Positions 1 through 12,360 of a stretch of DNA of 20,304 nucleotides are shown here, one piece after another. The position numbers were made by a program, and so were the translations under genes. The DNA is from Pseudomonadota bacterium (GTDB lineage: Bacteria; Pseudomonadota; Alphaproteobacteria; Rhizobiales; Tepidamorphaceae), in contig JAEYRQ010000071.1 of NCBI GenBank assembly GCA_023435545.1, forward strand, positions 1 to 20,304, in the 5' to 3' direction. The notes beneath the pieces are model-generated. The model ran no database searches and was not told the DNA's origin. It worked only from the letters and a program-made list of their open reading frames with translations. How positions within the stretch are numbered: the stretch's first letter is position 1; every line of letters begins with the position of its first letter.

Positions 1-69
1 GATCGGGTCCCAACTGCGGTCGGCTGCGTCCCGATCCCGGCTCTCCACTGCGTTGCGGCCGGGATGACG
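1..69. repeat. Palindromic intergenic repeat, copy A (cut by window edge)
   Basis: This is the right-hand part of a nested inverted-repeat element. The 12-mer TCCCGATCCCGG lies at 29-40 and the 13-mer GGCCGGGATGACG at 57-69. Both occur in the same order and orientation in the complete copy at 15266-15372. The partner of the inner arm begins at base 1 (GATCGGG), so the left outer arm must lie outside the window. It sits just beyond the end of the TRAP large-permease gene, where it could form a strong hairpin in the 3' end of that transcript. No coding function is seen in 1-108. Confidence 0.75.
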
Positions 70-108
70 CGGTTGCGATGTGGCTGTCGGTCGATCATGC
101 AGCCCTCG

Positions 109-1398
109 TCACATCGTCCCCGGCAGCACCAGCGCCATCCACGGCAGGGCGATCAGCAGCACGATGCGGACGATGTCCATGACGATGAAGGGGACGACGC
201 CGCGGAAGATGGTCCCGGTCGGCACCTCCGGCACGATCGATTTCAGCACGAACACGTTGAGCCCGACCGGCGGCGTGATCAGGCTGATTTCGATCGCCAC
301 GACGACGAAGATGCCGAACCAGATCGGATCGACGCCGAGGCTGACGATCACCGGGAAGAAGACCGGCACGGTGAGCAGCATCATCGAGATCGATTCCAGC
401 ACCGCGCCGAGCAGCAGATAGATCACGAGGATCACCAGCAACACCGTGGTCGGGTGCGCGCCGAGCGCGGTGATCCAGGTCCTCAGGTCGCCGGGCATGC
501 CGGCGAGGTTGACGAAGTTGGAGAACAGCAGCGCCCCGAACAGGATGAAGAACAGCATCGCTGTCATCCGCCCGGTCTCCACCAGCACCTCGTAGAGAGT
601 GCGGAAGTTCAGCCGGCCGCGCACCAGCGCGATCAGGAAGGCGCCGAAGGCGCCGATGCCGGCCGCCTCGGTGGCGGTGAAGATGCCGAGATAGATGCCG
701 CCCATGACGCAGGCGAACAGCGCCAGGATTCCGGCGACGCCTTTGGTCGCCTTGATCCGCTCGATCAGCGGCAGCGGATCGGCATGACGCGCCTGGTCCG
801 GCTTCAGCACCAGCGAGACCCGCACCGCGATCAGGTAACCGAGGATGCCGACGAGGCCGGGGATGATGCCGGCCAGGAACAGCTTGCCGATGTCCTGCTG
901 GGTGATCACCCCGTAGAGCACCAGCACGATCGAGGGCGGAATCAGGATTCCCAGCGTTCCGCCGGCGGCGATCGAGCCGGTGGCGAGCGCCTCCGAATAG
1001 CCGTAGCGGCGCATCGAGGGCATCGACACGCGCGCCATCGTCGCGGCGGTCGCCAGCGAGGAGCCGCAGACCGAGGAGAAGCCGCCGCAGGCGACGATGG
1101 TCGCCATGGCCAGCCCGCCGCGATAGTGCCGCAGCCAGGCGTTGGCGGCGGCGTACATGTCGTCGGCGAGCCCGGCCTTGAGCACGAAATTGCCCATCAG
1201 CACGAACAGCGGCATCACCGAGAGCGTGTAGCTCATGCCGTTGTCGTAGAAGACCTGGCCGAGCATCGACAGCGCCGGCGACGTGCCGATCTGGACGATG
1301 ATTCCGACGAGCGCCACCGCCGTCATGGCGAAAGCGATCGGCACGCCGGCGGCGATCACCGCCAGCAGCACGAGGATGCCGACGATCCAGTCAATCAT
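109..1398 (-). CDS. dctM: TRAP transporter large permease (DctM family)
   Basis: This is the large membrane subunit of a tripartite ATP-independent periplasmic transporter. It carries the sodium- or proton-coupled transport path for substrate delivered by the periplasmic DctP. The 429-residue length is normal for the family. The protein is almost wholly hydrophobic, with about a dozen membrane segments starting at residue 4. Family-typical stretches include the small-residue-rich GSSLATAATMARVSMP region and the later GTLGILIPPSIVLVLYG loop. It starts inside the end of the DctQ gene (8-base overlap, ATGATTGA), which shows translational coupling. It is the last gene of the seven-gene minus-strand operon and is followed by a palindromic repeat. 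The substrate cannot be read from this subunit; a carboxylate is likely from the DctP features. Confidence 0.93.
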   Translation of the reverse strand: MIDWIVGILVLLAVIAAGVPIAFAMTAVALVGIIVQIGTSPALSMLGQVFYDNGMSYTLSVMPLFVLMGNFVLKAGLADDMYAAANAWLRHYRGGLAMATIVACGGFSSVCGSSLATAATMARVSMPSMRRYGYSEALATGSIAAGGTLGILIPPSIVLVLYGVITQQDIGKLFLAGIIPGLVGILGYLIAVRVSLVLKPDQARHADPLPLIERIKATKGVAGILALFACVMGGIYLGIFTATEAAGIGAFGAFLIALVRGRLNFRTLYEVLVETGRMTAMLFFILFGALLFSNFVNLAGMPGDLRTWITALGAHPTTVLLVILVIYLLLGAVLESISMMLLTVPVFFPVIVSLGVDPIWFGIFVVVAIEISLITPPVGLNVFVLKSIVPEVPTGTIFRGVVPFIVMDIVRIVLLIALPWMALVLPGTM

Positions 1399-1945
1399 AT
1401 GCGGTGCTGCCGGCCGGTGGGGAAGCCTTCGCGCCGCGCGCCGCGGCGATGTGCTCGCGCGCGACCACCAGCAGGGCGAGCGCGCCGAGCACGGTGAAGC
1501 CCGCCATGGTGTAGCCGATCGGCCCCTTCGGCATCCTGAGGAAGATCGTCACGTCGCCGTAGGAGGCGAGCTGCAGGGAATGCACCGTCAGCCGCCAGGC
1601 GATGACGATGAGGATCGCCGCGCAGAAGACCGAGACGACTGCCGCGTGGATGTTGCGCAGCCTCGGCCGGAACCGCTCGGTGATCAGCGTCACCGCGACG
1701 TGCTCCTCCTTCAGGCAGACCAGCGGCAGGCCGATGAAGATAACCAGCGCCAGCGTGATCTCGGTGATCTCGAAGGCGCCGGGCAGTGGCCGCGACAGCA
1801 CGTAGCGGCCGAACACGTCGATGGTCGTCACCATCATCAACGCCATCAGCAGCACCACGACCATCAGGCCGAGCGTGAACTCGGCCGCCCGCAGGGCGCG
1901 CCCGCGCCCTGCGGTAATGCCGCCCGTTTCGGACGAGTCGGACAT
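1391..1945 (-). CDS. dctQ: TRAP transporter small permease (DctQ family)
   Basis: This is the small membrane subunit of the TRAP transporter, needed to assemble with DctM in the inner membrane. It has 184 residues and a polar N-terminus of about 20 residues. Four hydrophobic segments follow, at roughly 22-45, 60-80, 102-122 and 148-165. The motif FGRYVLSRPLPGAFEITE after the first helix is typical of DctQ (F.RYv...p....eE). The start follows the DctP stop by 19 bases and has no strong ribosome binding site, which suggests translation depends on the upstream gene. The family assignment is secure from topology and position; the substrate is unknown. Confidence 0.9.
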   Translation of the reverse strand: MSDSSETGGITAGRGRALRAAEFTLGLMVVVLLMALMMVTTIDVFGRYVLSRPLPGAFEITEITLALVIFIGLPLVCLKEEHVAVTLITERFRPRLRNIHAAVVSVFCAAILIVIAWRLTVHSLQLASYGDVTIFLRMPKGPIGYTMAGFTVLGALALLVVAREHIAAARGAKASPPAGSTAYD

Positions 1946-1964
1946 CGCTGTCAGGAAAGGCCGG

Positions 1965-2993
1965 TCAGTTGCCGGCCTTCACCTTGGCGATCTCCGCCAC
2001 CAGCGCGTCGTAGACCTCCTGGCCGTTGACGCCCTTCGCGGTGATCTTGGCCAGCACCTGCTCCTCATAGGGCTTGATCGCCGCCTTGATGGCGTCGAGT
2101 TCGCCGGGTGCCGGGTCGTGCAGCGTGATCTTGCCCTTCTGCTTGATCATCTCGATCGCCGCGTCGTCGGCCTTGTCCCAGACCTCGCCGGCCATCTTCG
2201 CCAGCGCCTCGCCGGAGACGCTGAGGATCGCGTCCTGGTCCTCCTTGGGCAGGGCGTCCCATTTGGCCTGGTTCATCACCAGGAACATCGAGGCGGTGTA
2301 GAGGCCGCCCGGCACGATCAGGCCCTGGTCGAGCACCTCGTCGATCTTGAAGGCGGTGACCGATTCCGGCGGGAACTGGATGCCGTCGGCGACGCCACCC
2401 GACAGGATCTCGTAGGCCTTGGTCACCGGCGCCTGGATCGGCACCAGCTCGAGCGCATTGGACACCGCCTGGGCGAAGCCGCCGCCGATGCGGATCTTCG
2501 AGCCCTTGATCTGGTCGAGCGAGGTGACGTCGCGGCCGCGCGTCCACAGCTGGCCGGGGCCGTGCGTCCACACGCCGAGCAGCTTGGCGCCGCGGTGCTC
2601 GTCGAGCTTCTCCAGGTATTCGGAGTGGATCCGCCACCAGGCCGGCGACAGGTAGGCCGACTTCTCGCACAGGAACGACATCTCGGCGAGTTCCGTCACC
2701 TCGAAGCGGCCGGGCGTATAGTTGTGGACGCCGAAGGTGACGTCGGCGACGCCGTTGACCGCGAAGTCGAAATGCGCCGGCGGCGGCCCGAGCGGCGCGT
2801 CGAGGACCTGCATGACGACGCGGCCCTGGGTCGCCTCCTCGACCTGCTTGGTCCAGGGCACGATGATCTCGGCGAACAGCGGATGCTGCGGCGGCAGCCA
2901 GTTGGCGACGCGCAGCGTCGTCTGGGCGGAGGCGGGAGAGGCTGCGAGCGCGACGCCCGCGGCCATGAGCAAAGCACCGAAAGTCTTCTTCAT
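1965..2993 (-). CDS. dctP: TRAP transporter periplasmic solute-binding protein (DctP family)
   Basis: This periplasmic receptor captures the solute for the DctQM membrane pair. The chosen start gives MKKTFGALL, a classic signal peptide (KK, hydrophobic core, cleavage near ASA-QTT at residues 22-24), and 342 residues in all. The upstream in-frame ATG at 3002 is rejected because the GAGGGG ribosome site touches it directly, whereas it sits 9 bases ahead of the ATG at 2993. The stretch GSKIRIGGG holds the family's conserved arginine, which in characterised DctP proteins clamps a carboxylate. It is followed by the usual PVTKAYEILSGGVADG segment. A gap of about 50 bases and a GC hairpin separate it from the upstream ligase gene, so its expression level may be set separately. 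An aromatic or other organic acid is a reasonable inferred ligand. Confidence 0.92.
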   Translation of the reverse strand: MKKTFGALLMAAGVALAASPASAQTTLRVANWLPPQHPLFAEIIVPWTKQVEEATQGRVVMQVLDAPLGPPPAHFDFAVNGVADVTFGVHNYTPGRFEVTELAEMSFLCEKSAYLSPAWWRIHSEYLEKLDEHRGAKLLGVWTHGPGQLWTRGRDVTSLDQIKGSKIRIGGGFAQAVSNALELVPIQAPVTKAYEILSGGVADGIQFPPESVTAFKIDEVLDQGLIVPGGLYTASMFLVMNQAKWDALPKEDQDAILSVSGEALAKMAGEVWDKADDAAIEMIKQKGKITLHDPAPGELDAIKAAIKPYEEQVLAKITAKGVNGQEVYDALVAEIAKVKAGN

Positions 2994-3038
2994 CGGAACC
3001 ATCCCCTCTTGTTGGATGTGTGACGCGGCGGCGCCGGT

Positions 3039-3055
3039 CCCCCGTCAGGCGGGGG
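3039..3055 (-). other. GC-rich hairpin spanning the ligase stop codon
   Basis: CCCCCG (3039-3044) and CGGGGG (3050-3055) form a perfect 6-bp stem with a 5-base loop that holds the ligase stop codon. In the minus-strand transcript no U-run follows it, so it does not look like a classical intrinsic terminator. It sits at the border between the enzyme genes and the TRAP genes. It may stabilise one part of the mRNA or dampen read-through. This role is inferred. Confidence 0.4.
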
Positions 3056-4559
3056 TTTGGGTCGCCTCCGAAACCAGTCTGGAAACCTCGTCGACTCTGA
3101 CCTTTCCGAGCGCGCTCTTGGGCAGTTCGTCCACGAATACCACGTCGCGCGGCTGCTTGAAGCGGGCGAGCCGCCCCTGGAAGTGGGCGAGCACCTCGTC
3201 GCGGCCGATATCCTCATCGCCGCGCACGATCACCGCCACCGGCACGGCGCCCCAGCGCGCATCGGGGCGCCCGACGACGCAGCATTCGGCGACGCCCGGC
3301 ATCTCCCGGAGCAGGCGCTCGGCCTCCGCCGGATAGTTGTTCTCGCCGCCGGAGATGATGACGTTCTTGATGCGGTCGCGGAACCAGTAGTCGCCATTCG
3401 CGTCCATCTCCGCCACATCGCCGGAACGGAACCAGCCGTCCTCAAATGCCCGCGCGGTCTCGGCGGGATCGTTCCAGTAGCCGGTGGCGACGTGGCCGCC
3501 GCGCACCAGCACCTCGCCGGGAACGCCGGGCCCGACGTCGCTGCCGGTGGCGTCCACCAGCCGGACCTCGGTGTGAAGGCCCGGGCGGCCCATCGAGCCG
3601 GCGGTGGCAAAGGCGCGATCGGCGCGCTGGTAGATGGCGATCGGCGCGGTCTCGGAGGAGCCGTAGATCTGGATCACCGGCACGCCGCGGGCGTGGAAGG
3701 CTTGAATCATCTCCATCGGAACCGCCATCGAGCCGGTGGCGACCGCACGCAGCGGGGAGAGGTCGGTCGCTTGCCAGTCGGGATGGGCGATGGCCGCGGC
3801 CATCGTCGCCGGCACCAGAACGGTCAGCGTGGGGCGCTCTTCCCGCACCGCCCGCAGGAACGCGCCCGGCTCGAAGCGGTCGTGCAGGATCACGGTCGCG
3901 CCCAGATGCAGCGCCGGTGTCGTCTGGATGTTCAGGCCCCCGACGTGGAACATCGGCAGCACGGTCAGCACCGTGTCCGCCGCGCTCATGTCATGCATGT
4001 GGATCGCGTTGACCGCGTTGCAGGCGATCGCCGACTGGGTCAGCACGGCACCCTTCGGCCGTCCCGTGGTGCCGGAGGTGTAGACGATCAGCAGCGGATC
4101 CTCGGGCGTGCCTACGGCGGGCGGCGGCGAACCGGCCGCCTCGATCAGGCTGGCCAGCGTCTCGCCGGCTCCCTCCAGTGGCACGATGCGAAGTCCGGCA
4201 GGCATCGAGGCCCCGTCCAGCGCGTCGAGGAACGGACGCTCGCCGATCAGCGCGTTGGCGCCGGCGTTCTGGAGGATGAAGGCATGCTCGGGCGCCGCCA
4301 GTCGCCAGTTCAGCGGCACGACGATGGCGCCGATGCGCGCGGCGGCGAAGACGAGCGCGATCATGTCCGGGTGGTTGGTGCCGAGCCAGGCGATCCGGTC
4401 GCCGCGCGCGATGCCGAGATCGCCGGCGAGCACCGCCGACATCCGCTCGACGCGCTCCGCCAGCGCCGCATAGGATAGGACATCGGCGCCGAATCGGATC
4501 GCGGGCTTCTCCGGATCGAAGCCTGCATGCGTCACGATCCAGCGCGAAATGTCCCGCAT
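3045..4559 (-). CDS. Acyl-CoA ligase (AMP-binding, ANL superfamily)
   Basis: This enzyme probably activates a carboxylic acid with ATP to the acyl-AMP and then to the CoA thioester in the cytoplasm. All core ANL motifs are present: the phosphate loop YTSGTTGRPKG (160-170), YGSSE (299-303), GWFRSGD with Asp381, the hinge region DRIKNVIISGGENNYP (395-410), and the C-terminal catalytic lysine in PKSALGK (Lys486). The 504-residue length is normal for medium-chain or aromatic acid ligases. The start lies 9 bases after the stop of the ACAD-like gene. In context it may activate an aromatic acid (anthranilate is one idea because of the nearby kynurenine genes) or a product of ring cleavage. The substrate pocket cannot be assigned by eye, so no symbol is given. 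Confidence 0.88.
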   Translation of the reverse strand: MRDISRWIVTHAGFDPEKPAIRFGADVLSYAALAERVERMSAVLAGDLGIARGDRIAWLGTNHPDMIALVFAAARIGAIVVPLNWRLAAPEHAFILQNAGANALIGERPFLDALDGASMPAGLRIVPLEGAGETLASLIEAAGSPPPAVGTPEDPLLIVYTSGTTGRPKGAVLTQSAIACNAVNAIHMHDMSAADTVLTVLPMFHVGGLNIQTTPALHLGATVILHDRFEPGAFLRAVREERPTLTVLVPATMAAAIAHPDWQATDLSPLRAVATGSMAVPMEMIQAFHARGVPVIQIYGSSETAPIAIYQRADRAFATAGSMGRPGLHTEVRLVDATGSDVGPGVPGEVLVRGGHVATGYWNDPAETARAFEDGWFRSGDVAEMDANGDYWFRDRIKNVIISGGENNYPAEAERLLREMPGVAECCVVGRPDARWGAVPVAVIVRGDEDIGRDEVLAHFQGRLARFKQPRDVVFVDELPKSALGKVRVDEVSRLVSEATQTPA

Positions 4560-4568
4560 GGCGCCCTG

Positions 4569-5840
4569 TCAGTCGTCCGTCTCGCCGGGATTGTAGAGTG
4601 CCTCGCGCCCGATCCGGTCGAGGCAGAGCTCGGCCGTCCACGGCAGCATCAGCGAGCCGCAGCGGCTGTCGCGGTAGAGGCGCTCGAGCGGCAGGGTCTT
4701 CAGCATCGACTGGCCACCGCAGGTCCGGATGGCGAGCTGGGCGAGCTCGTTGGCGTTCTCCATCACCGTATACTGCGCGGCGTAGGCACGCAGCACCTGT
4801 TCCCGGCTGGGGTCGGCGCAGGCCTCCGAGACCGCCTGGAACCACAGCGCCTTGGTCTGCTGCAGCATGACGAACATCTGCGCGACTGCGATCTGCTTGG
4901 TCGGGAACTTGCGCCGCTTCTCCGGGCCGGTGTTCGGGATCTCGCCGCGCAGATACTTCACGGTGAAATCGAAGGCCGCCTGGGCGATGCCGAGATAGGT
5001 CGGCGAGAGCGTCATGAACATGTGCGGCCAGCGCGAGGCGGCCTGATAGTAGACGCCGCGCGGCATCAGCGCCTGGTCGTCCTCGACGAACACGTCCTTG
5101 AGCAGGAGCGTGCGCGAGACGGTGCCGCGCATGCCCAGCGGATCCCAGTCGCCGACCACCTCGACGCCGTCTGCCGTGGCGGGAACGGCGATGTACATGG
5201 TGTCCTTGCGCGAAGGCCGCTCGCCGGGCTTCATCTCGCCGCACAAGACGCCGTAATAGTCGGCCGAGCCCGACAGCGAGGCGAAGATCTTCTTGCCGTT
5301 GATGATCCAGCCGCCGTCCACCCGCTTCGCCGAGGTCGAGAACGGCACGACGCCGGCAGCCGCCGCGCCGCCTTCCGAGAAAGGCTGGGCGAAGATGGCG
5401 CCGTCCTTGACGATCCGCTCATAGTGCTTGGCGCGGCGCCTGAGATGCGTCGCGCGGGTCTCCTCGTCCATGTCGAGGTCGTCGGACAACGGGCCGGACC
5501 ACAGGCACGAGCAGACATGCATGTTCCAGGTCAGCGCAGTCGCGCCGCAATAGCGGCCGATCTCGGCGGCGGTGGTGGCGTAGGCGCGGAAGCCGGCGCC
5601 GAAGCCGCCATGCTCCTTCGGCACGCTGATCGCCAGCAGCCCCGCCTCGTGCATGTCCTTGTAGTTCTCGGTCGGGAACTTCGCGTCGCGATCGTACTCC
5701 GCAGCGCGCGGCGCGAACCGCGCCTTGCCGATTCGCCGGGCGAGCGCGTTCAGCTCCGCTTCCTCATCGTCCAGCCGGAAGGCCTTCGGATCGAAGATCG
5801 GCGCGTCGACGTCGATTGCGTCGAGATCCGTGACGTTCAT
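4569..5840 (-). CDS. Acyl-CoA dehydrogenase-fold flavoprotein, possibly a group D flavin monooxygenase
   Basis: The 423 residues match the ACAD fold: an N-terminal helical domain with VPKEHGGFGAG (73-83), the middle beta domain with FSEGG (154-158), WIINGKKIFASLSGSADYY (178-196) and LGMRGTVSRTLLLKDVFV (235-252), and a C-terminal helical domain with IRTCGGQSMLKTLPLERLYRD. The region that carries the catalytic glutamate (YEGT) in most dehydrogenases reads MLPWTAEL (398-405). The alternative site used by isovaleryl-CoA dehydrogenase also seems to lack a glutamate. This fits ACAD-fold monooxygenases such as HpaB/C2 (about 420 residues) or HsaA, which take reduced flavin from a separate reductase; two such reductases are encoded divergently. 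The start at 5840 has GGGAGG upstream and overlaps the hydrolase stop (ATGA). A longer in-frame extension up to 6080 lies inside the hydrolase gene and is rejected. A true acyl-CoA dehydrogenase acting after the ligase remains possible. Confidence 0.8.
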   Translation of the reverse strand: MNVTDLDAIDVDAPIFDPKAFRLDDEEAELNALARRIGKARFAPRAAEYDRDAKFPTENYKDMHEAGLLAISVPKEHGGFGAGFRAYATTAAEIGRYCGATALTWNMHVCSCLWSGPLSDDLDMDEETRATHLRRRAKHYERIVKDGAIFAQPFSEGGAAAAGVVPFSTSAKRVDGGWIINGKKIFASLSGSADYYGVLCGEMKPGERPSRKDTMYIAVPATADGVEVVGDWDPLGMRGTVSRTLLLKDVFVEDDQALMPRGVYYQAASRWPHMFMTLSPTYLGIAQAAFDFTVKYLRGEIPNTGPEKRRKFPTKQIAVAQMFVMLQQTKALWFQAVSEACADPSREQVLRAYAAQYTVMENANELAQLAIRTCGGQSMLKTLPLERLYRDSRCGSLMLPWTAELCLDRIGREALYNPGETDD

Positions 5841-6589
5841 CGGGCGTCCTCCCGTATCGTGTCCAGAAACCGCCGCACGGCAGCCGCGAAGCGGTCGGGG
5901 CATTCGAGCGGGGCCATGTGGCCGGTCTTTTCCAGCACCTCCAGGCGCGCTCCCGGGATGGTCTCGGCCATCCGCGTCATCGTCTTCAGCGGCGCATTCG
6001 GGTCCATATCGCCTGCGATCAGCAGGGTCGGCACGGCGATCGAGCCGAGTTCCTCGCGGCGGTTGAAGGTGACGAGGCACTGAAGGCCGGCGCGGTAGCT
6101 CGCCTCGGGGAGCTCCGCCAGCAGCGCCTCGACGGCCGGCGCCGCGGCCGGATCCGGCTCGGGGCCCAGCAATTCGGCTGGTGCGGCGGCGGCGAGTTCG
6201 GCCATCGTCCGGCCCTCGTCGAGCGGCCCGAGCCGCGCCTTCAGGAACGCCTCCTGGAACGAGCCGTCGCGGCTGCCGAACACCGGCGTCGTTCCCGACA
6301 GGATCAGCGCGGCCACCCGGTCAGGATGGCGATGCACCAGTTCCTGCGCGACCATGCCGCCGATCGAATGGCCGAGCGGGATCGCACGCTCGATGCCGCG
6401 TGCGTCGAGTTCGGCGACCACGCCGTCGGCGAGGCTCTCGAACGTGAAGGGACCGTCGAGCGGCTTGCCGCCATAGCCCGGATAGTCCCAGGCGATGATC
6501 TCCACCGTGTCACGCAGGCGCTCGACCACCGGGACGAACATGCCGCAGTCCGAGCCGACGCCGCTGAGCAGGACGAGGGGGGCGCTCAT
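5837..6589 (-). CDS. Alpha/beta-hydrolase, NicD-like candidate deformylase
   Basis: This is a compact 250-residue alpha/beta-hydrolase. The nucleophile elbow GHSIGG has Ser75, the probable acid is Asp196 in AGDMDPNAP, and the histidine is His224 in GHMAPLE. The oxyanion region is near LLSGVGSD (7-14). It has no signal peptide, so it is cytoplasmic. It overlaps the NicX-like gene upstream and the ACAD-like gene downstream by 4 bases each (ATGA), so the three are translated as a unit. In the nicotinate pathway an alpha/beta-hydrolase, NicD, deformylates N-formylmaleamate, the product of NicX, so the pairing suggests that job. The same chemistry is needed for N-formylkynurenine, whose usual formamidase gene is absent here. 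Esterase, lactonase or C-C hydrolase activity cannot be excluded. Confidence 0.8.
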   Translation of the reverse strand: MSAPLVLLSGVGSDCGMFVPVVERLRDTVEIIAWDYPGYGGKPLDGPFTFESLADGVVAELDARGIERAIPLGHSIGGMVAQELVHRHPDRVAALILSGTTPVFGSRDGSFQEAFLKARLGPLDEGRTMAELAAAAPAELLGPEPDPAAAPAVEALLAELPEASYRAGLQCLVTFNRREELGSIAVPTLLIAGDMDPNAPLKTMTRMAETIPGARLEVLEKTGHMAPLECPDRFAAAVRRFLDTIREDAR

Positions 6590-7632
6590 GCTCGCGCCTC
6601 CACCAGCCGTCCCTCCTCGACCACTGCGACGCCATCGAGGCTGATGGTGCAGTTGCGGGTCGGCAGGTCGAAATGGCCCTTGGTGAACCGGCCCGCGAAC
6701 TCGTTGGCGCCGGTCGAGAACAGGAAGTTGCCGGCGAACGCCCGGATCTCGGTGCCGTTGGTGTCGCGCTGGTCGTACATGGTCAGCGCCTCGTATCGGG
6801 CGCCCTCGTTGAGGCCCCAGCCGACATGGCTGACCGCATAGGCGTTGCGGTCGCCCCAGGCGGCGAAGTAGCGGCGCATCAGCTCCGCGTCGGTGCCGCT
6901 GCCGGCGATGTCGACGACATAGTCGTCCTCGATCGTCAGCCGCACAGGGCTTTCCAGATAGCGCTTGAAGGTGAGGTTCACGTCGCCGGTATCGAGCACC
7001 AGCGTGCCGTTGACCGAGCCGGCCTTCGGGAAGGAGACGACGATGCCGCCCGGCCAGTGGGCGACCGTCTTCGGCCGGTCGGTGTAGCCCCAGACGCCGG
7101 CGGTCGCCGCCTCGCGCATGTTCACGGTGAGGTCGGTACCGGCCGTCGAGATGACGCGCATCTCGGCGGCGCCACGGGCAGCCTGCACCGCCGCCTTGAC
7201 CTTCGTCTCCATCGAGGGGTGCGGCACCAGCCGCTCCAGCGCCTCGGGGTGCTCGTTGGAGATCATCATGATGCGCGCGCCGCCGGAGATGACCTCGGGC
7301 AGTTCGGGTGCGTGCAGCAGCCCCTCGAGCGTGCAGTCGACGACGATTGCAGCCGCCTTCAGCCCCTCGATCGCCGCCCGCTGGCCGGTCAGGGCATTTG
7401 AAGCTCCGGTCGAGCGGACCGGGACCGGCGCGTCCTGCGGGGGCGTCGGCACGACGATGTGGAAGACGGTTGCGCCGAGGCGGGCGAGCGCCAGTTCGCA
7501 CAGTTGGACGTTGAGAGCGCGCGACTGCGTCTCAGAAAGGATGACCGCCATCTCTCCGGGTGCGACCTTGCAAAGCTCGAACACGCGCGCGAACGCGTCG
7601 ATCCACTTCGCCTCGATCCGATCGCTCAGCAT
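6586..7632 (-). CDS. NicX-like 2,5-dihydroxypyridine 5,6-dioxygenase family protein
   Basis: The 348-residue cytoplasmic protein resembles NicX, an Fe(II) ring-cleaving dioxygenase related to M29 aminopeptidases and unlike common extradiol enzymes. NicX opens 2,5-dihydroxypyridine to N-formylmaleamate. The iron ligands reported for Pseudomonas putida NicX (His265, His318, Asp320; about 350 residues) have apparent counterparts at His269 in SHVGWGLN and at His320 and Asp322 in TKGHFDLPTRN. Numbering and spacing nearly agree. Other visible family segments are STAGTDLTVN (162-171) and GGIVVSFPKAGSVNGT (195-210). The start has GGAGG four bases upstream and opens the operon next to the divergent control region. 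The follow-on enzymes maleamidase (NicF) and maleate isomerase (NicE) are missing here, so the substrate may be another hydroxylated or aminated ring. Many databases label such proteins M29 peptidases. Confidence 0.75.
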   Translation of the reverse strand: MLSDRIEAKWIDAFARVFELCKVAPGEMAVILSETQSRALNVQLCELALARLGATVFHIVVPTPPQDAPVPVRSTGASNALTGQRAAIEGLKAAAIVVDCTLEGLLHAPELPEVISGGARIMMISNEHPEALERLVPHPSMETKVKAAVQAARGAAEMRVISTAGTDLTVNMREAATAGVWGYTDRPKTVAHWPGGIVVSFPKAGSVNGTLVLDTGDVNLTFKRYLESPVRLTIEDDYVVDIAGSGTDAELMRRYFAAWGDRNAYAVSHVGWGLNEGARYEALTMYDQRDTNGTEIRAFAGNFLFSTGANEFAGRFTKGHFDLPTRNCTISLDGVAVVEEGRLVEARA

Positions 7633-7780
7633 CGGGCCTCCGTTCGTCCTCTGGCGGGGCTTCGCACCCTCGTCTTGCGGATGAGCCTAGCACGTCGCAT
7701 TATTGTATGAAAAGTGATAATTTGATGCTTGAAGTAATGCCCCGGCTATCGGCCGGCGGGGAGCCGCGGAGGTTCAGCGC
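7633..7780. promoter_or_regulatory. Divergent promoter/operator region between the two catabolic arms
   Basis: This 148-base gap separates the starts of the two arms and holds the most AT-rich patch of the region (7699-7738). Possible -10 hexamers are TACAAT on the minus strand (7702-7707 read in reverse) and GATAAT on the plus strand (7716-7721); good -35 boxes were not found. ATTAT (7699-7703) and ATAAT (7717-7721) form an imperfect 23-bp palindrome of the size bound by MarR dimers. GCTTGAAGTA (7727-7736) recurs as GCTTGAAGCA upstream of kynA. Ribosome sites GGAGG flank both ends (7768-7772 for the plus gene). The regulator could be the MarR-like domain of the adjacent reductase; that is inference. 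Confidence 0.5.
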
Positions 7781-8725
7781 ATGTCCGACCCGATCGCCTT
7801 TCGCATGGCGCTGGGGCGCTTCGTCACCGGGGTGACGGTGGTCACCACGCTCGACGAGGCGGACGCCCCGATCGGGCTGACCGCGAACTCCTTCAACTCC
7901 GTCTCGCTCGATCCGCCGCTGGTGCTGTGGAGCCTGTCGCGCCGATCGATCAACCTGCCGGTGTTCGAGCGGGCCTCGCATTTCGCGATCAACGTGCTGT
8001 CGGTCGATCAGAAACACCTGTCGGACCGCTTCGCGCGTCCGGTGGAAGACCGCTTCCGCGATGTCGACTGGAGACCCGGCGCCGGCGGCGCTCCGGTCCT
8101 CGGCGGCTGCGCGGCGGTGTTCGAATGCGCCAGCGAACAGCGCTACGAGGGCGGCGACCACGTCATCTTCATCGGCCGGGTCGAGCGCTTCGACCATGAG
8201 AACCGAGTGCCGCTCGCCTATCACGCCGGCGGCTACGCCACGACCGCGCAGTATTCCGGCGCCTTCACCGAGGGCCCGTTCACCGACGACTATCTGCTCT
8301 ACCTGCTCGCCAGAGCCTCGAGCCTGGCGTCAGGCGAGTTCCACGCCGAACTGGCCGGGCTCGGCGTACCCGTGCCGGTGTGGCGGGTGCTGGCGATCCT
8401 GACCGGCGCCGACGGCGGCCGTACGATCGGCGAGATCGCCGCCCGGGCGCTCCTGAAGCAGCCGACGGCGACCAAGATCGTCGACCGGATGGAGGAGCAG
8501 GGCTATGTGGTGCGGAGTCCCTCCCCCGACGACCGCCGCCGCGTCGTCGTGCAGCTCACCGCGCTCGGCAACGAGCTGGTCACCGACCTCATCGCCCGGG
8601 CGCAGGCGCACGAAACCGCGCTGCTCGGCACCCAGACCCCGGCTGAGGCGGAAATTCTGAAGCGGGTGCTCGGCCAGCTCATCGACCGGCTGGCGGAGCG
8701 GCGCGACAGGCGATCCGGCCGGTGA
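7781..8725 (+). CDS. Flavin reductase with C-terminal MarR domain (HPAH C1-type), copy 1
   Basis: This two-domain protein has 314 residues. Residues 5-160 form an HpaC-like NAD(P)H:flavin reductase domain, with RFVTGVTVVTT, TANSFNSVSLDPPLVLWSL (34-52), FAINVLS and GGDHVIFIGRVERF (124-137). Residues 170-310 form a MarR-type winged helix, with the helix-turn-helix near TIGEIAARALLKQPTATKIVDRMEEQGYV and an intact wing signature SPDDRRR (248-254). The same architecture is known in C1, the reductase of Acinetobacter p-hydroxyphenylacetate 3-hydroxylase, where the MarR-like part senses substrate and releases inhibition. It would supply FMNH2 or FADH2 to a partner oxygenase; the ACAD-fold protein in the divergent operon is the best candidate here. 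GGAGG lies 8 bases before the ATG. It leads the plus-strand operon. Whether the MarR domain also binds DNA is unknown. Confidence 0.87.
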   Translation: MSDPIAFRMALGRFVTGVTVVTTLDEADAPIGLTANSFNSVSLDPPLVLWSLSRRSINLPVFERASHFAINVLSVDQKHLSDRFARPVEDRFRDVDWRPGAGGAPVLGGCAAVFECASEQRYEGGDHVIFIGRVERFDHENRVPLAYHAGGYATTAQYSGAFTEGPFTDDYLLYLLARASSLASGEFHAELAGLGVPVPVWRVLAILTGADGGRTIGEIAARALLKQPTATKIVDRMEEQGYVVRSPSPDDRRRVVVQLTALGNELVTDLIARAQAHETALLGTQTPAEAEILKRVLGQLIDRLAERRDRRSGR

Positions 8726-8810
8726 CCCGGCGGTGGCACGGCCGCGCCGCCGCGATATATTCCGCCGAACGGACCCGCGCGGCATGCGCAATTCGAAGGA
8801 CGATCTGCCG

Positions 8811-9233
8811 ATGCTGACGCGAAGCGCCACGAAACTCACCCATGCCGGCGCGCTCGCCGCGCTCAATGCCTGCGTGGCCAAGGCCGAGCAGATGGGCGTG
8901 CCGCAATGCATCGCCGTGGTCGATGCCTCGGGCGTGCTGCTCGCCTTTGTGCGCATGGACGGCGCGCGGTTTCTCTCCAATGACTCCGCGATCGCCAAGG
9001 CGGTCAGTGCCGCTTCGACCCGCATGCCGACCTCGCGGCTTCCCGCTGACATGGAGATGAAGCTGGCGATGGCGACATCCGGAAGGCTCACGAACCTTAA
9101 GGGCGGGGTTCCGATCGTCTTCGACGGCGAGTGCATCGGCGGTATCGGCGTCGGATCGGGCACCGGTGCGCAGGACCTCGAGGTCGCCCGTTCCGGGCTC
9201 GCCGCCATCGGCGCGGACGATCAGTCACCCTGA
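8811..9233 (+). CDS. GlcG/HbpS-family (DUF336) protein
   Basis: The 140-residue protein has the GlcG/HbpS signatures: alternating small residues, AVVDASGVLLAFVRMDGA (38-55), a central helix with AIAKAVSAAS, and the glycine-rich end GVPIVFDGECIGGIGVGSGTGAQDLEVARSGLAAI. The family includes the haem-responsive HbpS of Streptomyces and many small proteins of unclear role beside catabolic oxidoreductases. The start at 8811 is preferred because AAGGA lies 10 bases upstream and because the family fold begins right after it. An in-frame ATG at 8784 and a longer frame from 8733 lack a ribosome site. It lies between the two reductase genes, 18 bases before the second. A TATATT patch near 8756 in the preceding gap could be a weak internal promoter. 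A cofactor-binding or accessory role is possible but not shown. Confidence 0.85.
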   Translation: MLTRSATKLTHAGALAALNACVAKAEQMGVPQCIAVVDASGVLLAFVRMDGARFLSNDSAIAKAVSAASTRMPTSRLPADMEMKLAMATSGRLTNLKGGVPIVFDGECIGGIGVGSGTGAQDLEVARSGLAAIGADDQSP

Positions 9234-9251
9234 GATGCCAGATTCCCTGAC

Positions 9252-10223
9252 ATGAACGAAGCACCCGCCCCACCCGTTCTGGCTCCCGGCAGCGACGCGC
9301 AAGACAGCCGGGCGCTCAGGCGGGCCCTCGGCCAGTTCGCCACCGGGGTGACCGTCGTCACCACCTGTGATCCCGTCGGCGGACAACCCGTCGGCATGAC
9401 CGCGAACTCGTTCTCGTCTGTCTCGCTCGACCCGCCGCTGATCCTGTGGTCGATCACCCGCACGTCGCGCAGCCTGCCGGCCTTCCTGTCCGCGCCGAAT
9501 TTTGCGGTGAACGTGCTTTCGGCCGACCAGATCGACCTGTCGGTGCGATTCGCCCGGCATGCCGAGGACAAGTTCGCCGGGCTCGCCTGGAGCAAGGGGC
9601 TCGGCGGCGTGCCCGTCCTGCCCAAGCTGTCGGCCCTGTTCGAATGCCACCGCGTCGCCTGCCACGAGGGCGGCGACCACGTGATCGTGGTCGGCGAAGT
9701 CCAGCGTTTCGAACGCTTCGAACGGCCGGGGCTGGTCTTCGCCGAGGGGCGGTACGGGCTCGTGGCCGACCATCCGATGCAGGATCGGCCGGTGCCGCAG
9801 GCCGGCGCGGACGGCGCGCCGCATCCCCACGACGATTTCCTGATTCCGCTGCTGTTCCGGGCCTATGAGGCGCTGTTCGCTGCCTTTTCCGAGGAGCTCG
9901 AGGCTGCCGGCACCAGCAGCGCCGAGATGCGTATCCTCGCCGTGCTGTCGATCCGCCCCGGTGCCGACTTCGAACGGCTGACGCGGGCGACCTATTTGGG
10001 CGAACAGACCACCGAGGCTGCGCTCGCGCCGCTGATCGCCGCCGGCTACGTTGCGGGTGGACGCCAATCGGGTCTCCGCCTCACCGACGCCGGCCGTGAC
10101 CGGCTCACCGGGTTGATCCGGCTGGCCGAGCGGTTCGAGACCGCACAATTGGGCGATCTCGGCGCCCGCGAGGTCGAGCGGCTGAGAGCCTTGCTGCGCC
10201 GCCTCGCCGGGGGACGTGCGTAG
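9252..10223 (+). CDS. Flavin reductase with degenerate C-terminal MarR-like domain, copy 2
   Basis: This 323-residue paralogue of the gene at 7781 has the same order of domains. The reductase half (about 20-175) has GQFATGVTVVTT, TANSFSSVSLDPPLILWSI (50-68), FAVNVLS and GGDHVIVVGEVQRF (140-153). The C-terminal half (about 195-320) keeps the helical pattern of MarR (SSAEMRILAVLSI, LAPLIAAGYVAG) but lacks the charged DDRRR wing, reading GGRQSGLRLT instead. It may therefore keep ligand sensing or dimerisation while having lost DNA binding. No clear ribosome site precedes the ATG, which overlaps the stop of a six-codon frame (9235-9255), so coupled translation is likely. It probably feeds reduced flavin to an oxygenase. 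The two copies may serve different oxygenases or different inducers. Confidence 0.85.
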   Translation: MNEAPAPPVLAPGSDAQDSRALRRALGQFATGVTVVTTCDPVGGQPVGMTANSFSSVSLDPPLILWSITRTSRSLPAFLSAPNFAVNVLSADQIDLSVRFARHAEDKFAGLAWSKGLGGVPVLPKLSALFECHRVACHEGGDHVIVVGEVQRFERFERPGLVFAEGRYGLVADHPMQDRPVPQAGADGAPHPHDDFLIPLLFRAYEALFAAFSEELEAAGTSSAEMRILAVLSIRPGADFERLTRATYLGEQTTEAALAPLIAAGYVAGGRQSGLRLTDAGRDRLTGLIRLAERFETAQLGDLGAREVERLRALLRRLAGGRA

Positions 10224-10346
10224 GACTGGGCCGGACCTCGATATTTTAGGCTTGAAGCAGTTCGGCGGCAGTGCGACTCTTCAGGGCATGTTGCCAGTTC
10301 GGACTCCGGGCCAGCAAGCCCGCCGGCCCTGATAAGGACATCCGCG
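10224..10346 (+). promoter_or_regulatory. Leader/possible promoter upstream of kynA
   Basis: The 123-base gap contains an AT-rich spot (ATATTTTA, 10241-10248) followed by GCTTGAAGCA (10250-10259). This resembles GCTTGAAGTA with its AT-rich left flank in the divergent region at 7717-7736. CAGTTCGG occurs twice, at 10258-10265 and 10295-10302, in direct orientation 37 bases apart. AAGGA (10334-10338) is the kynA ribosome site, 8 bases from the ATG. No convincing -35/-10 pair was found. The region could give kynA-kynU their own regulated promoter, but read-through from the reductase genes is equally possible. Confidence 0.4.
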
Positions 10347-11165
10347 ATGAGCACCGGTGGAATCGAGACCGACTTCCGCGACCGGATGAGCTATGGCGAC
10401 TACCTGCAGCTGGACACGCTGCTGTCGGCGCAGACGCCGCTCTCGCCGGAACACGACGAGCTGCTGTTCATCACCATCCACCAGGTCAAGGAATTGTGGA
10501 TGAAGCTGATGAACCACGAACTCGATGCGGCAACCGGCTTCATCCACGCCGACGATCTGCAGGCATCGTTCAAGTGTCTGGCCCGCGTCGGGCGCATCCA
10601 GGAGCAGCTGATCCAGGCCTGGGACGTGCTGTCGACGATGACGCCCGCCGACTATCTCGCATTCCGCTCCTATCTCGGCTCGTCGTCCGGCTTCCAGTCC
10701 TGGCAGTACCGGCTGATCGAGTTCAAGCTCGGTGCCAAGGACGCCCGCATGCTGGAGCCGCACCGCCACCGCCCCGATATCCTCGCCCGGCTGGAGGAGG
10801 CCTATGAGCGGCCGAGCATCTACGACGAGGCGCTCAGGGTGCTTGCCCGGCGCGGCTTCCCGGTGCCGGAGGAGGTGCTGGGCCGCGACGTGCGGCAGCC
10901 CTATGGGAAGAACGACGCGGTCGAGGCGATCTGGCTGGAAATCTACAAGAACCCGACGCGCTGGTTCGACCTCTACGAGCTCGCCGAGGAGCTGGTCGAC
11001 ATTGAGGACGCGTTCCAGCGCTGGCGCTTCCGCCACATGAAGACGGTGGAACGCATCATCGGCATGCGCACCGGCACCGGCGGATCCTCCGGCGTCTCCT
11101 ATCTCAGGCGCGCTCTCGACCAATCGTTCTTTCCGGAACTGTGGTCGGTCAGGACGCTGATCTGA
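10347..11165 (+). CDS. kynA: Tryptophan 2,3-dioxygenase
   Basis: This haem enzyme cleaves the pyrrole ring of L-tryptophan with O2 to give N-formylkynurenine, the first step of the kynurenine pathway, in the cytoplasm. Its 272 residues are normal for bacterial TDO. Family signatures are clear: [18 protein letters not shown], with the distal His45; SGFQS.QYR.IEF (114-126), with Arg122 for the substrate carboxylate; [13 protein letters not shown], with the axial haem ligand His230; and [11 protein letters not shown] (243-253). AAGGA lies 8 bases before the ATG. The kynureninase-like gene follows after 40 bases, so the two form a tryptophan-to-anthranilate unit. The usual formamidase gene kynB is not next to them. 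Confidence 0.96.
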
Positions 11166-11205
11166 GCCCGCGGTCGCGGGCGCGGGAGAAACCGGGAGAC
11201 CGGCC

Positions 11206-12360
11206 ATGCTCGATCTGAAGGATCACTTCTCCCGGTTTCTGGGCTCTAACCCCGACCGGCTGCATTTCGCCGCGCACAGCCATCATCCCTGGCCGGACGC
11301 GACCCGCGAGGCGCAGATCGAGGCGTGGGACACCGCAGCCCGGCTGATCGACGACAAGTGGGACTACGTGCTCGGGCCGCTGCTCGAAGAAGTTCGCCGC
11401 CATGTCGCAGGCCACCTGAACCTGGCCGATCCGGCGACGCTGGTCTTCGCGCCGAACACGCACGAGCTCTTGAAGCGACTCCTTTCATGCTTCCCGGCCG
11501 GCCATCGGGTGAGGATCGTGGCGAGCGAGGGTGAGTTCCACACCTTCACCCGCCAGATCGCCCGCCTCGCCGAAGACGGGCTGGTCGACCTCGTCACCGT
11601 GCCAGTCGAGCCCTTCGCGAGTTTCCCGGACCGCCTGGTCGAGACCGTGCGGACGGGGTGGGACCTCGTCTTCGTCAGTCAGGTGTTCTTCAATTCCGGA
11701 TTCGCCTGGGAGGATTTCGGGCGCCTCGCGGCGGCAGCGGGCGAGGCGATGGTGGTCATCGACGGCTATCACGGCTTCATGGCGCGCCCGACCGATCTGT
11801 CCGGCGTCGCGGATCGCTGCTTCTACATGGCCGGCGGCTACAAGTATGCGATGTCGGGCGAGGGCGCCTGCTTCCTGCATTGTCCGCCGGGCTGGGGCCC
11901 GCGCCCGCGCGACACCGGCTGGTACGCCGCCTTCGGCGCGCTGGCGGCGACGGGCGATGGCCGCGTCGCCTATTCGGCCGACGGCTGGCGCTTCATGGGG
12001 GCGACCTTCGATCCCTCCGGCCTGTTCCGGATGCGCGCGGCGATGCGCTGGCTCGCCGCGCAGGGGCTGGACGCGGGTCGGCTGCACGCCCATGCCCGCG
12101 CGCTGCAGGACAGGTTCCTCGCGGCCCTCCCGGCGGCCGGCCTGTCGTGGGGATCGCTGGTCGTCGATCCGGCGCGTCATGGGATCGGCAACTTCCTGAC
12201 CTTCCAGCTCGACGAAGCAGGGGAGCTCTACGGGAGGCTGCACGAGGCAGGCATTATCACCGACGTGCGCGGCCGCCGGCTGCGCTTCGGCTTCGGCATC
12301 TACCAGAGCGAAGGTGACGTCGACCGGCTCGTCGCGCGGATGGCGAAGCTCTCCGCCTGA
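11206..12360 (+). CDS. kynU: Kynureninase-like PLP enzyme (class V aminotransferase fold)
   Basis: The likely role is PLP-dependent cleavage of L-kynurenine to anthranilate and L-alanine, after KynA and a formamidase. Support comes from fold type I motifs: VVIDGYHGFMARP, whose Asp and His match the cofactor-contacting DLAHS.G..P stretch of kynureninases; GGYKYAMSGEGACFLH, with the Schiff-base lysine; and TGWYAAFG, resembling the SGWFGH segment. The protein is shorter (384 residues) than well-studied kynureninases (about 416), and the region after GW, ending in ATFDPSGLFRMRAAM, departs from the usual G(T/S)PPILS..AL. It thus belongs to a divergent branch. Substrate preference (kynurenine, hydroxykynurenine or formylkynurenine) is uncertain. 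The position directly after kynA is the strongest hint. Confidence 0.75.
   Translation: MLDLKDHFSRFLGSNPDRLHFAAHSHHPWPDATREAQIEAWDTAARLIDDKWDYVLGPLLEEVRRHVAGHLNLADPATLVFAPNTHELLKRLLSCFPAGHRVRIVASEGEFHTFTRQIARLAEDGLVDLVTVPVEPFASFPDRLVETVRTGWDLVFVSQVFFNSGFAWEDFGRLAAAAGEAMVVIDGYHGFMARPTDLSGVADRCFYMAGGYKYAMSGEGACFLHCPPGWGPRPRDTGWYAAFGALAATGDGRVAYSADGWRFMGATFDPSGLFRMRAAMRWLAAQGLDAGRLHAHARALQDRFLAALPAAGLSWGSLVVDPARHGIGNFLTFQLDEAGELYGRLHEAGIITDVRGRRLRFGFGIYQSEGDVDRLVARMAKLSA

Follow-up and report, generated by a model that had tools for sequence, protein, structure and literature searches.

We analyzed a 20,304-base stretch (the window; GC 66–71%) of contig JAEYRQ010000071.1 from an alphaproteobacterium of the family Tepidamorphaceae. 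It carries a 12-gene island in which seven minus-strand and five plus-strand genes diverge from a 148-bp gap (7633–7780). On the minus strand, a NicX-like dioxygenase, an alpha/beta-hydrolase, a flavoprotein of the acyl-CoA dehydrogenase (ACAD) fold and a CoA ligase form a conserved module. The dioxygenase appears to have kept the catalytic core of NicX and lost its pyridine-specific contact. By genome content, the module is strongly linked to kynurenine-pathway (kyn) genes, which the plus strand encodes here. We read the module as a CoA-linked aromatic catabolic operon around a NicX-family dioxygenase of changed specificity. From gene families, their conservation, residue patterns, a shared motif and co-occurrence, we infer substrates, products and regulatory interactions; our tentative reading is a CoA-dependent route that takes tryptophan-derived anthranilate, or a close 2-aminobenzoate, to a final NicX-type opening of the benzene ring. 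Open reading frames and Pfam, NCBIfam and PDB matches confirmed the layout given by a sequence-only reading of the window, with seven minus-strand genes (NicX-like to TRAP transporter) facing five plus-strand genes.

The NicX-like dioxygenase and its conserved module

The NicX-like gene (6586–7632, minus strand) encodes a predicted non-haem Fe(II) ring-cleavage dioxygenase whose match to NicX (PDB 7cn3, E 4.8e-57) spans nearly the whole protein. According to the available text of PMC7910607, NicX binds Fe through His265, Ser302, His318 and Asp320 and contacts its substrate through Leu104, His105, Glu177 and His189, with Glu177 touching N1 and O1 of 2,5-dihydroxypyridine. The comparison covered 204 distinct sequences of the family (120 from databases, that of the window, those of the loci described below and two from plasmids), leaving out tblastn matches below ~250 aligned residues and removing repeated genes before the final count. 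The four Fe ligands, together with His105, His189 and Arg293, were invariant (204/204). The Glu177 position held Val (194), Ile (4), Thr (4) or Asn (2) and never Glu, and the Glu308 position held Phe (198), Tyr (4) or Val (2); the window protein has Val180 and Phe312 there. Both glutamates were kept in the three canonical NicX proteins compared (P. putida, Azospirillum and Caballeronia). Since Glu177 is absent throughout, 2,5-dihydroxypyridine is unlikely as the substrate of this family, and these residues suggest that the substrate is probably carbocyclic rather than a pyridine. Most source names among the matches listed label the gene "peptidase M29" or "2,5-dihydroxypyridine 5,6-dioxygenase", and both labels are probably wrong.

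The sequence-only reading had allowed a pyridine acid as a substrate, which would make the module part of a nicotinate- or hydroxypyridine-type pathway like that of the classical nic cluster (nicC-E-D-X-F). The nearly full-length homology and conserved Fe ligands agree with such a pathway, and the two systems share a NicX-fold Fe(II) dioxygenase beside an alpha/beta-hydrolase. However, the Glu that contacts the pyridine N1 and O1 is replaced in all 204 sequences, Glu308 is changed, and the hydrolase is just 26–30% identical to NicD, locally, across 76–99 residues. The proteins annotated in the window include no nicC (FAD monooxygenase), nicE or nicF type, as the earlier reading had stated; a CoA ligase, an ACAD-fold protein and a TRAP transporter stand in place of maleamate amidase and maleate isomerase genes. 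Canonical clusters look different: those of Azospirillum (L175) and Caballeronia (L176) carry FAD monooxygenase, Asp/Glu racemase, hydrolase, dioxygenase and isochorismatase-family genes (nic gene names for them are our interpretation of the records' product names). A pyridine or nicotinate substrate was rejected on the missing Glu177 (0/204 vs 3/3 canonical proteins), and a nicotinate-type pathway as a whole is very unlikely.

Conservation of the module was assessed in 80 NicX-like loci (the best 80 of 204 candidates, skewed to close relatives and Bradyrhizobium; 61/80 longer than 20 kb), scoring gene presence with a 10-kb reach, identity thresholds of our own setting and a 50% coverage limit. 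The module core recurred around the NicX-like gene: ACAD-fold gene in 65/80, CoA ligase in 62/80, hydrolase in 62/80 and flavin reductase in 59/80 loci. Genes for a 3-hydroxyacyl-CoA dehydrogenase (49/80), an octopine-dehydrogenase-like protein (48/80) and an enoyl-CoA hydratase (45/80) were also frequent, and TRAP genes were rarer (DctP 9/80, DctM 8/80). In the closest genome (G233), the NicX-like and ACAD-fold proteins are 94% and 95% identical to those of the window, with synteny from dctM to pyrF. The gene set was seen in Bradyrhizobium, Stappia, Roseibium, Thalassobaculum, relatives of Tepidamorphus and one Chloroflexi record, and 9/190 genomes in a wider draw from the class encoded the ACAD-fold protein.

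The ACAD-fold gene (4569–5840, minus strand; PF02771/PF02770/PF08028), whose start was set by its ATGA overlap with the hydrolase stop, is predicted from alignments and conservation to encode a flavin-dependent monooxygenase. Its relatives are 51–95% identical in a sample of 249 genomes of one order, which served for all co-occurrence queries and divides into 29 genomes with the gene (ACAD+, module-bearing) and 220 without it (ACAD−). The best solved relatives are 5z8t/5gj7 (E 5e-37). Aligned to isovaleryl-CoA dehydrogenase 4o5m, the protein has Leu/Pro and Met at two catalytic-Glu positions, which we take to be those of the short-/medium-chain acyl-CoA dehydrogenases and of isovaleryl-CoA dehydrogenase. 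Leu384-Pro385 was found in 99/99 and Met259 in 98/99 distinct homologues (tblastn matches below ~330 aligned residues left out, repeats removed). Lacking Glu at either known dehydrogenase base, the protein suits a monooxygenase better than a dehydrogenase.

A partner for it is encoded across the gap. The first plus-strand gene (7781–8725) is a flavin reductase-MarR (FR-MarR) fusion (PF01613 and PF12802; C1 reductase 5zc2, E 3.4e-49), predicted to be a reductase and likely regulator. The earlier reading had called two such fusions. The second gene (9252–10223, plus strand) is a flavin reductase (PF01613) 41% identical to the first over 302 aa; its MarR-like half is degenerate and has no Pfam MarR match, so that the call stands in full for the first gene only. 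Together with the ACAD-fold protein, these reductases likely form a two-component flavin monooxygenase, as that reading had also proposed. The pairing resembles p-hydroxyphenylacetate 3-hydroxylase, in which a C1 reductase with a MarR half serves an ACAD-fold C2 oxygenase, but both proteins fall under the curated cut-offs (FR-MarR, NF045919, 209.9 vs 340; ACAD-fold protein, 47.4 vs 650), and the window's ACAD-fold partner belongs to a strongly conserved family of its own. Among the loci compared, FR and MarR are fused in 12 and separate genes in 11, so the fusion is not essential.

The structures that the MarR half resembles, chain 7kfo among them, presumably represent the Variovorax regulator of indole-3-acetic acid (IAA) degradation (iad). 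The iad auxin-degradation loci of Variovorax and Bradyrhizobium share MarR control with the island, and in the available text of PMC9613470 and PMC12633357 their end product is anthranilate. They differ in their Rieske iadCDE-type proteins, of which the window's annotated proteins include none. An IAA/iad locus was considered because of the MarR resemblance; besides the absence of Rieske-type proteins, the searched parts of the two papers did not contain "M29", "acyl-CoA dehydrogenase" or "flavin reductase".

Several relatives of the module are built differently. Plasmids of Ensifer (L173, 9001–15210) and Aminobacter (L174, 8248–14694) carry a sister cluster with a NicX-like protein (54% identity), an ACAD-fold protein (about 50%), a hydrolase, a TetR regulator and a flavin reductase, in which a glutamine-synthetase-like protein and an APC permease replace the ligase and TRAP genes; no CoA ligase was seen within the stretches shown. 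This suggests gamma-glutamyl activation of an amine instead of CoA activation of an acid. The Chloroflexi record (L015, 3514–9149) has a compact module in which an iron-sulphur protein, weakly matching the reductive-dehalogenase type, is encoded between the ACAD-fold and CoA ligase genes, and its genome holds two kynureninase genes above cut-off. Divergent genes of ~400–430 aa beside or near the NicX-like gene encode a cytochrome P450 in L166 (7045–8328) and L170 (13221–14492), and a cysteine-synthase-like pyridoxal phosphate (PLP) protein occupies that position in L165 (6683–7879).

Kynurenine genes in the window and across genomes

The plus-strand arm ends with kynA, encoding tryptophan 2,3-dioxygenase (TDO; 10347–11165; Trp_dioxygenase; TIGR03036 score 416.5, cut-off 390.7), and a kynU-like gene (11206–12360) for a PLP enzyme of the class-V aminotransferase type and a diverged kynureninase family. 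The earlier calls of the two genes fared unequally: kynA passed its model, and the kynU-like protein had no TIGR01814 match at E 1e-3, yet a 39-sequence profile of its family reached kynureninase 1qz9 first (4.8e-13), with cysteine desulfurases after it (3e-6). Its residues Lys213, Tyr212, Asp186, His189, Trp239 and Arg360 are invariant in the 39 sequences and align to kynureninase Lys227, Tyr226, Asp201, His204, Trp256 and Arg375, which we take to be functional positions, Lys227 being the PLP lysine. The kynU-like gene occurs in 7/249 genomes, always beside a TDO homologue (7/7), and none of the seven has a kynureninase match (E 1e-50). This pattern supports, without proving, a kynureninase role. 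The window thus resembles the kynurenine pathway (kynA-kynB-kynU) in a true kynA and in a kynU-like protein that keeps the PLP lysine and the other kynureninase positions, and differs from it in that the latter lies outside TIGR01814 and kynB was not found in the window. Diverged TDO homologues paired with kynU-like genes in L157 (7724–8815) and L181 (5178–6248) score 176.1 and 178.3 with TIGR03036 (cut-off 390.7), and are possibly part of a second tryptophan- or substituted-tryptophan-cleaving pair.

Across the 249 genomes, kyn genes accompanied the module. Kynureninase was present in 22/29 ACAD+ vs 33/220 ACAD− genomes (odds ratio 17.8, p 4e-11); counting either it or the kynU-like gene gave 26/29 vs 36/220 (odds ratio 44, p 3.6e-15), and kynA was in 20/29 vs 25/220 (p 7e-11; TDO counted at E 1e-50, which the diverged homologues beside kynU-like genes escape), all p values being too small because the genomes are related and not phylogenetically independent. 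Anthranilate 1,2-dioxygenase-type genes were found in 0/29 vs 6/220 genomes, none of the six above the family cut-off. The control gene hmgA was enriched as well (23/29 vs 56/220, odds ratio 11), which genomes rich in catabolic functions would be expected to show. The kyn link nevertheless held among both hmgA+ (21/23 ACAD+ vs 23/56 ACAD−) and hmgA− genomes (5/6 vs 13/164), and within kyn+ genomes hmgA showed no association (p 0.17). The proposed tie to tryptophan or anthranilate is thus borne out at the level of genome content, beyond the hmgA control.

Rarity of the two arms together in related genomes, which the sequence-only reading had named as grounds against its model, does hold for physical linkage. 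Just 1/29 ACAD+ genomes (G233; by eye from coordinates) has kyn genes no more than 15 kb from the module, and kynU, kynB and kynA each lie within 10 kb in 2/80 NicX loci (Bradyrhizobium L046 and L072). Fixed physical linkage was rejected on these counts, and the rarity of adjacency makes the joint with kynA and the kynU-like gene a feature local to the lineage of the window, atop a conserved core. It also favours an alternative that we consider unlikely, though the strongest we weighed, in which the module degrades some other transported aromatic acid and its closeness to the kyn genes is incidental, two arms of metabolically rich genomes sharing a gap. The hmgA enrichment fits this alternative, as do six Tardiphaga-type genomes with a NicX-like gene and no kynureninase match (whole-genome presence of the ACAD-fold gene being established for one, G023). 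Against it, the kyn association persists when genomes are stratified by hmgA or by the monooxygenase family treated below, and L046 and L072 hold a second, differently built kyn joint. Kynureninase was above cut-off in 14/31 genomes with NicX-like loci.

Neighbouring 2-aminobenzoyl-CoA-type operons

In Bradyrhizobium and Tardiphaga types, the module adjoins genes for a short-chain dehydrogenase/reductase, an enoyl-CoA hydratase and a monooxygenase/reductase, with a benzoate-type CoA ligase a few kb further on; a gene of the 2-aminobenzoyl-CoA monooxygenase type lies within 10 kb in 34/80 NicX loci. The Bradyrhizobium neighbour passes the NCBIfam model for salicylyl-CoA 5-hydroxylase/oxidoreductase (1142.3 vs 1078). 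Despite this name, we read the operon as one for the aerobic 2-aminobenzoyl-CoA pathway because in other genomes (L177, L178, L181, L182, L184 and L185) the same type adjoins kynA/kynU genes or TDO/kynU-like ones. The kynU-like gene is adjoined by it in 2/7 genomes (G319 and G424), and one contig of G031 carries, within about 25 kb, kynU, kynA, kynB and the NicX module together with the monooxygenase-type gene and a CoA ligase of benzoate type. Matches to the model (NF006101) in the 249 genomes fall into two main score groups, both in operons beside kyn-type genes, and the model's name may be wrong for many members.

That name raises the alternative that the module handles salicylate or another 2-hydroxybenzoate, by way of salicylyl-CoA, 5-hydroxylation to a gentisyl ring and NicX-type cleavage. 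The chemistry would be the same and the Bradyrhizobium neighbour does pass the model, but in 14/62 kyn+ genomes (by eye) a member of the family sits no further than 15 kb from a kynA, kynU or kynU-like gene, which points to 2-aminobenzoyl-CoA, and the kyn association would be left unexplained. We regard a salicylate route as rather improbable.

The 2-aminobenzoyl-CoA pathway (anthranilate CoA ligase, monooxygenase/reductase and beta-oxidation-like enzymes) resembles the module in activating an aromatic acid with CoA, and genes of its type are neighbours of kyn genes and, in Bradyrhizobium, of the module itself. It differs in reducing the ring (PMC4539516, in the text available), where the module encodes a ring-cleaving dioxygenase and lacks a reductase of the old yellow enzyme type. 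The monooxygenase/reductase family occurs in 28/29 ACAD+ vs 53/220 ACAD− genomes (scores binned as > 1200, 1050–1200 and < 1050 bits after the list was inspected), and among genomes with that family the module was found in 25/55 kyn+ vs 3/26 kyn− (p 0.003). Simple replacement of the pathway by the module would predict mutual exclusion, and was rejected on the 28/29 co-occurrence. In the window no annotated protein is of the NF006101 type, and the copy of the closest relative is on another contig.

Under NADH limitation, the monooxygenase of this pathway yields 5-hydroxyanthraniloyl-CoA, according to the available text of PMC3534580. By analogy, its ring is one that a NicX-type enzyme could cut, given the para arrangement of hydroxy and amino groups. 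The module might accordingly salvage 5-hydroxyanthranilate or its CoA ester as a leak product of the monooxygenase/reductase rather than degrade anthranilate, which would account for its accompanying, not replacing, the 2-aminobenzoyl-CoA pathway. The published leak, the 28/29 co-occurrence and the adjacency in 34/80 NicX loci, many of them of Bradyrhizobium type, argue for salvage. It would, however, make the module's own transporter and hydroxylase-like protein superfluous, and nothing in the window ties the module to that operon; we rate salvage as low in probability as the salicylate route.

A candidate operator and the proposed route

The gap between the arms contains a 22-bp operator-like motif, AATTATCACTTTTCATACAATA (minus-strand letters; 7701–7722), whose core AAATATTCCTTTTCATATAATA is common to upstream sequences of NicX-like genes. 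The motif seed matched at least 17/22 positions in 27/83 upstream regions, a count that is not independent because the seed was read by eye from some of those regions; the maximum in 83 shuffled regions was 13. Regions lacking it were mostly from Bradyrhizobium, where weak versions precede the hydrolase operon in several loci. In the window, the position weight matrix gave a single strong match (34.3, minus strand), the next score being −2.2. A scan of eight whole genomes at up to three mismatches, a better test than the upstream count, found the motif once per genome, ahead of the NicX-like gene in six and of the hydrolase-ACAD-ligase operon in two (G237 and G349), with one stray three-mismatch match in G010; the reversed control gave a single match over the eight genomes together. 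Several of these genomes had also shaped the pattern. The divergent gap had been proposed as a shared control region, and a module-specific motif does sit inside it. The scores point to one candidate site serving the module, and the window's kynA and kynU-like gene would come under it by position. A palindrome search of the gap gave nothing consistent, and a sigma-70 scan returned no sites.

We hypothesize that tryptophan would be converted to anthranilate by kynA and the kynU-like enzyme, aided by a formamidase absent from the window, while the TRAP transporter would import related aromatic acids. The CoA ligase would form the thioester, and the ACAD-fold protein, given reduced flavin by the FR-MarR proteins, would add a hydroxyl group at C5, para to the amino group. 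The NicX-like enzyme would then cleave C5–C6, as NicX does on 2,5-dihydroxypyridine. The NicX cut adjoins the ring nitrogen, whose place in 5-hydroxyanthranilate would be taken by the carboxyl-bearing carbon; by analogy, cleavage of the matching bond would place a formyl group next to the (thio)ester, where the alpha/beta-hydrolase could remove it much as NicD removes an N-formyl group. The hydrolase may thus take off a formyl group, NicD-like, or CoA. Dehydrogenases just outside the window, seen in the closest relative, would complete the route, and the MarR halves likely bind the gap motif, controlling both arms. In favour of this route we count the conservation of the module, the residue patterns of the dioxygenase and ACAD-fold families, the kyn co-occurrence, the physical link to genes of the 2-aminobenzoyl-CoA type, the published formation of 5-hydroxyanthraniloyl-CoA and the motif.

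More doubtful than the involvement of anthranilate is the specific scheme in which a NicX-family Fe(II) dioxygenase (Glu177→Val, Glu308→Phe), of a family so far known to act on pyridine rings, cleaves 5-hydroxyanthranilate or its CoA thioester at C5–C6, followed by NicD-like C-deformylation and under a MarR regulator fused to the flavin reductase that supplies the hydroxylase, as a further anthranilate route. Such a route would be distinct from those through catechol, gentisate or 3-hydroxyanthranilate and from the 2-aminobenzoyl-CoA reductase route. None of the four aerobic anthranilate routes reviewed in PMC4539516 uses a NicX-type enzyme in the text available, and the matches listed from open-licence literature included no paper on this gene set.

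Besides the rare adjacency and the hmgA enrichment, several observations weigh against degradation of tryptophan-derived anthranilate by the module, above all the 2-aminobenzoyl-CoA-type operon of the same genomes and the module's varied neighbours. Across the scanned loci of kyn and 2-aminobenzoyl-CoA type, the motif reached no score above 2.2 (lowest training score 20.3), so that it marks the module alone and not kyn operons elsewhere, as incidental closeness would have it. Also in line with that alternative, the module elsewhere lies near homogentisate dioxygenase-type genes (L166, full HgmA; L165, partial HgmA_N; G331, by coordinates) or protocatechuate 3,4-dioxygenase beta-type genes (L156 and L158). 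Neither the module nor the 2-aminobenzoyl-CoA monooxygenase family replaces the other, and relatives including G233 have the 2-aminobenzoyl-CoA-type operon with its own CoA ligase, which leaves a second anthranilate route unneeded. The substrate is not fixed by any ligase model. In 21/80 NicX loci no flavin reductase lies within 10 kb, and in the one Bradyrhizobium locus inspected for this (L023) the reductase gene is ~6.5 kb away, next to another flavoprotein-like gene.

Among the remaining minus-strand genes of the island, dctM (109–1398; TRAP large permease; PF06808, E 1.2e-96; TIGR00786 319.8 > 268.45), dctQ (1391–1945; small permease; PF04290) and dctP (1965–3002; PF03480) encode the transporter, the solute-binding DctP having 4p56_A (E 4.5e-72) as its nearest solved structure, with what we take to be mandelate as ligand. 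The AMP-forming acyl/aryl-CoA ligase (3045–4559, minus; PF00501 and PF13193) is nearest among solved structures to 8weu/8wev, the latter a feruloyl-CoA synthetase. The alpha/beta-hydrolase (5837–6589, minus; Abhydrolase family) has a GHSIGG nucleophile motif, and the ATGA-type junctions of its gene and the ACAD-fold gene with their neighbours fit a single transcription unit. That unit probably extends left past 109 (window 1–108), because in the closest relative (locus L153) genes for a 3-hydroxyacyl-CoA dehydrogenase and an octopine-dehydrogenase-like protein directly follow dctM. An HbpS/GlcG-like accessory protein (about 8811–9233, plus; PF03928; start most likely at 8811) is encoded between the two flavin reductases and, among the loci compared, adjoins the module only in the closest relative. 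Right of 12,360 lie ordinary genes (lytic transglycosylase, histidine-phosphatase/gpmA type, dapB, pyrF, FMN reductase, methyltransferase, dnaJ and dnaK).

The single-site candidate operator offers an easy handle for an induction test. A confirmed substrate would correct many annotations and take the NicX fold beyond pyridine rings to benzene ones. It would also help explain the fate of tryptophan-derived anthranilate in soil and marine bacteria and, possibly, of auxin-derived anthranilate in Bradyrhizobium.

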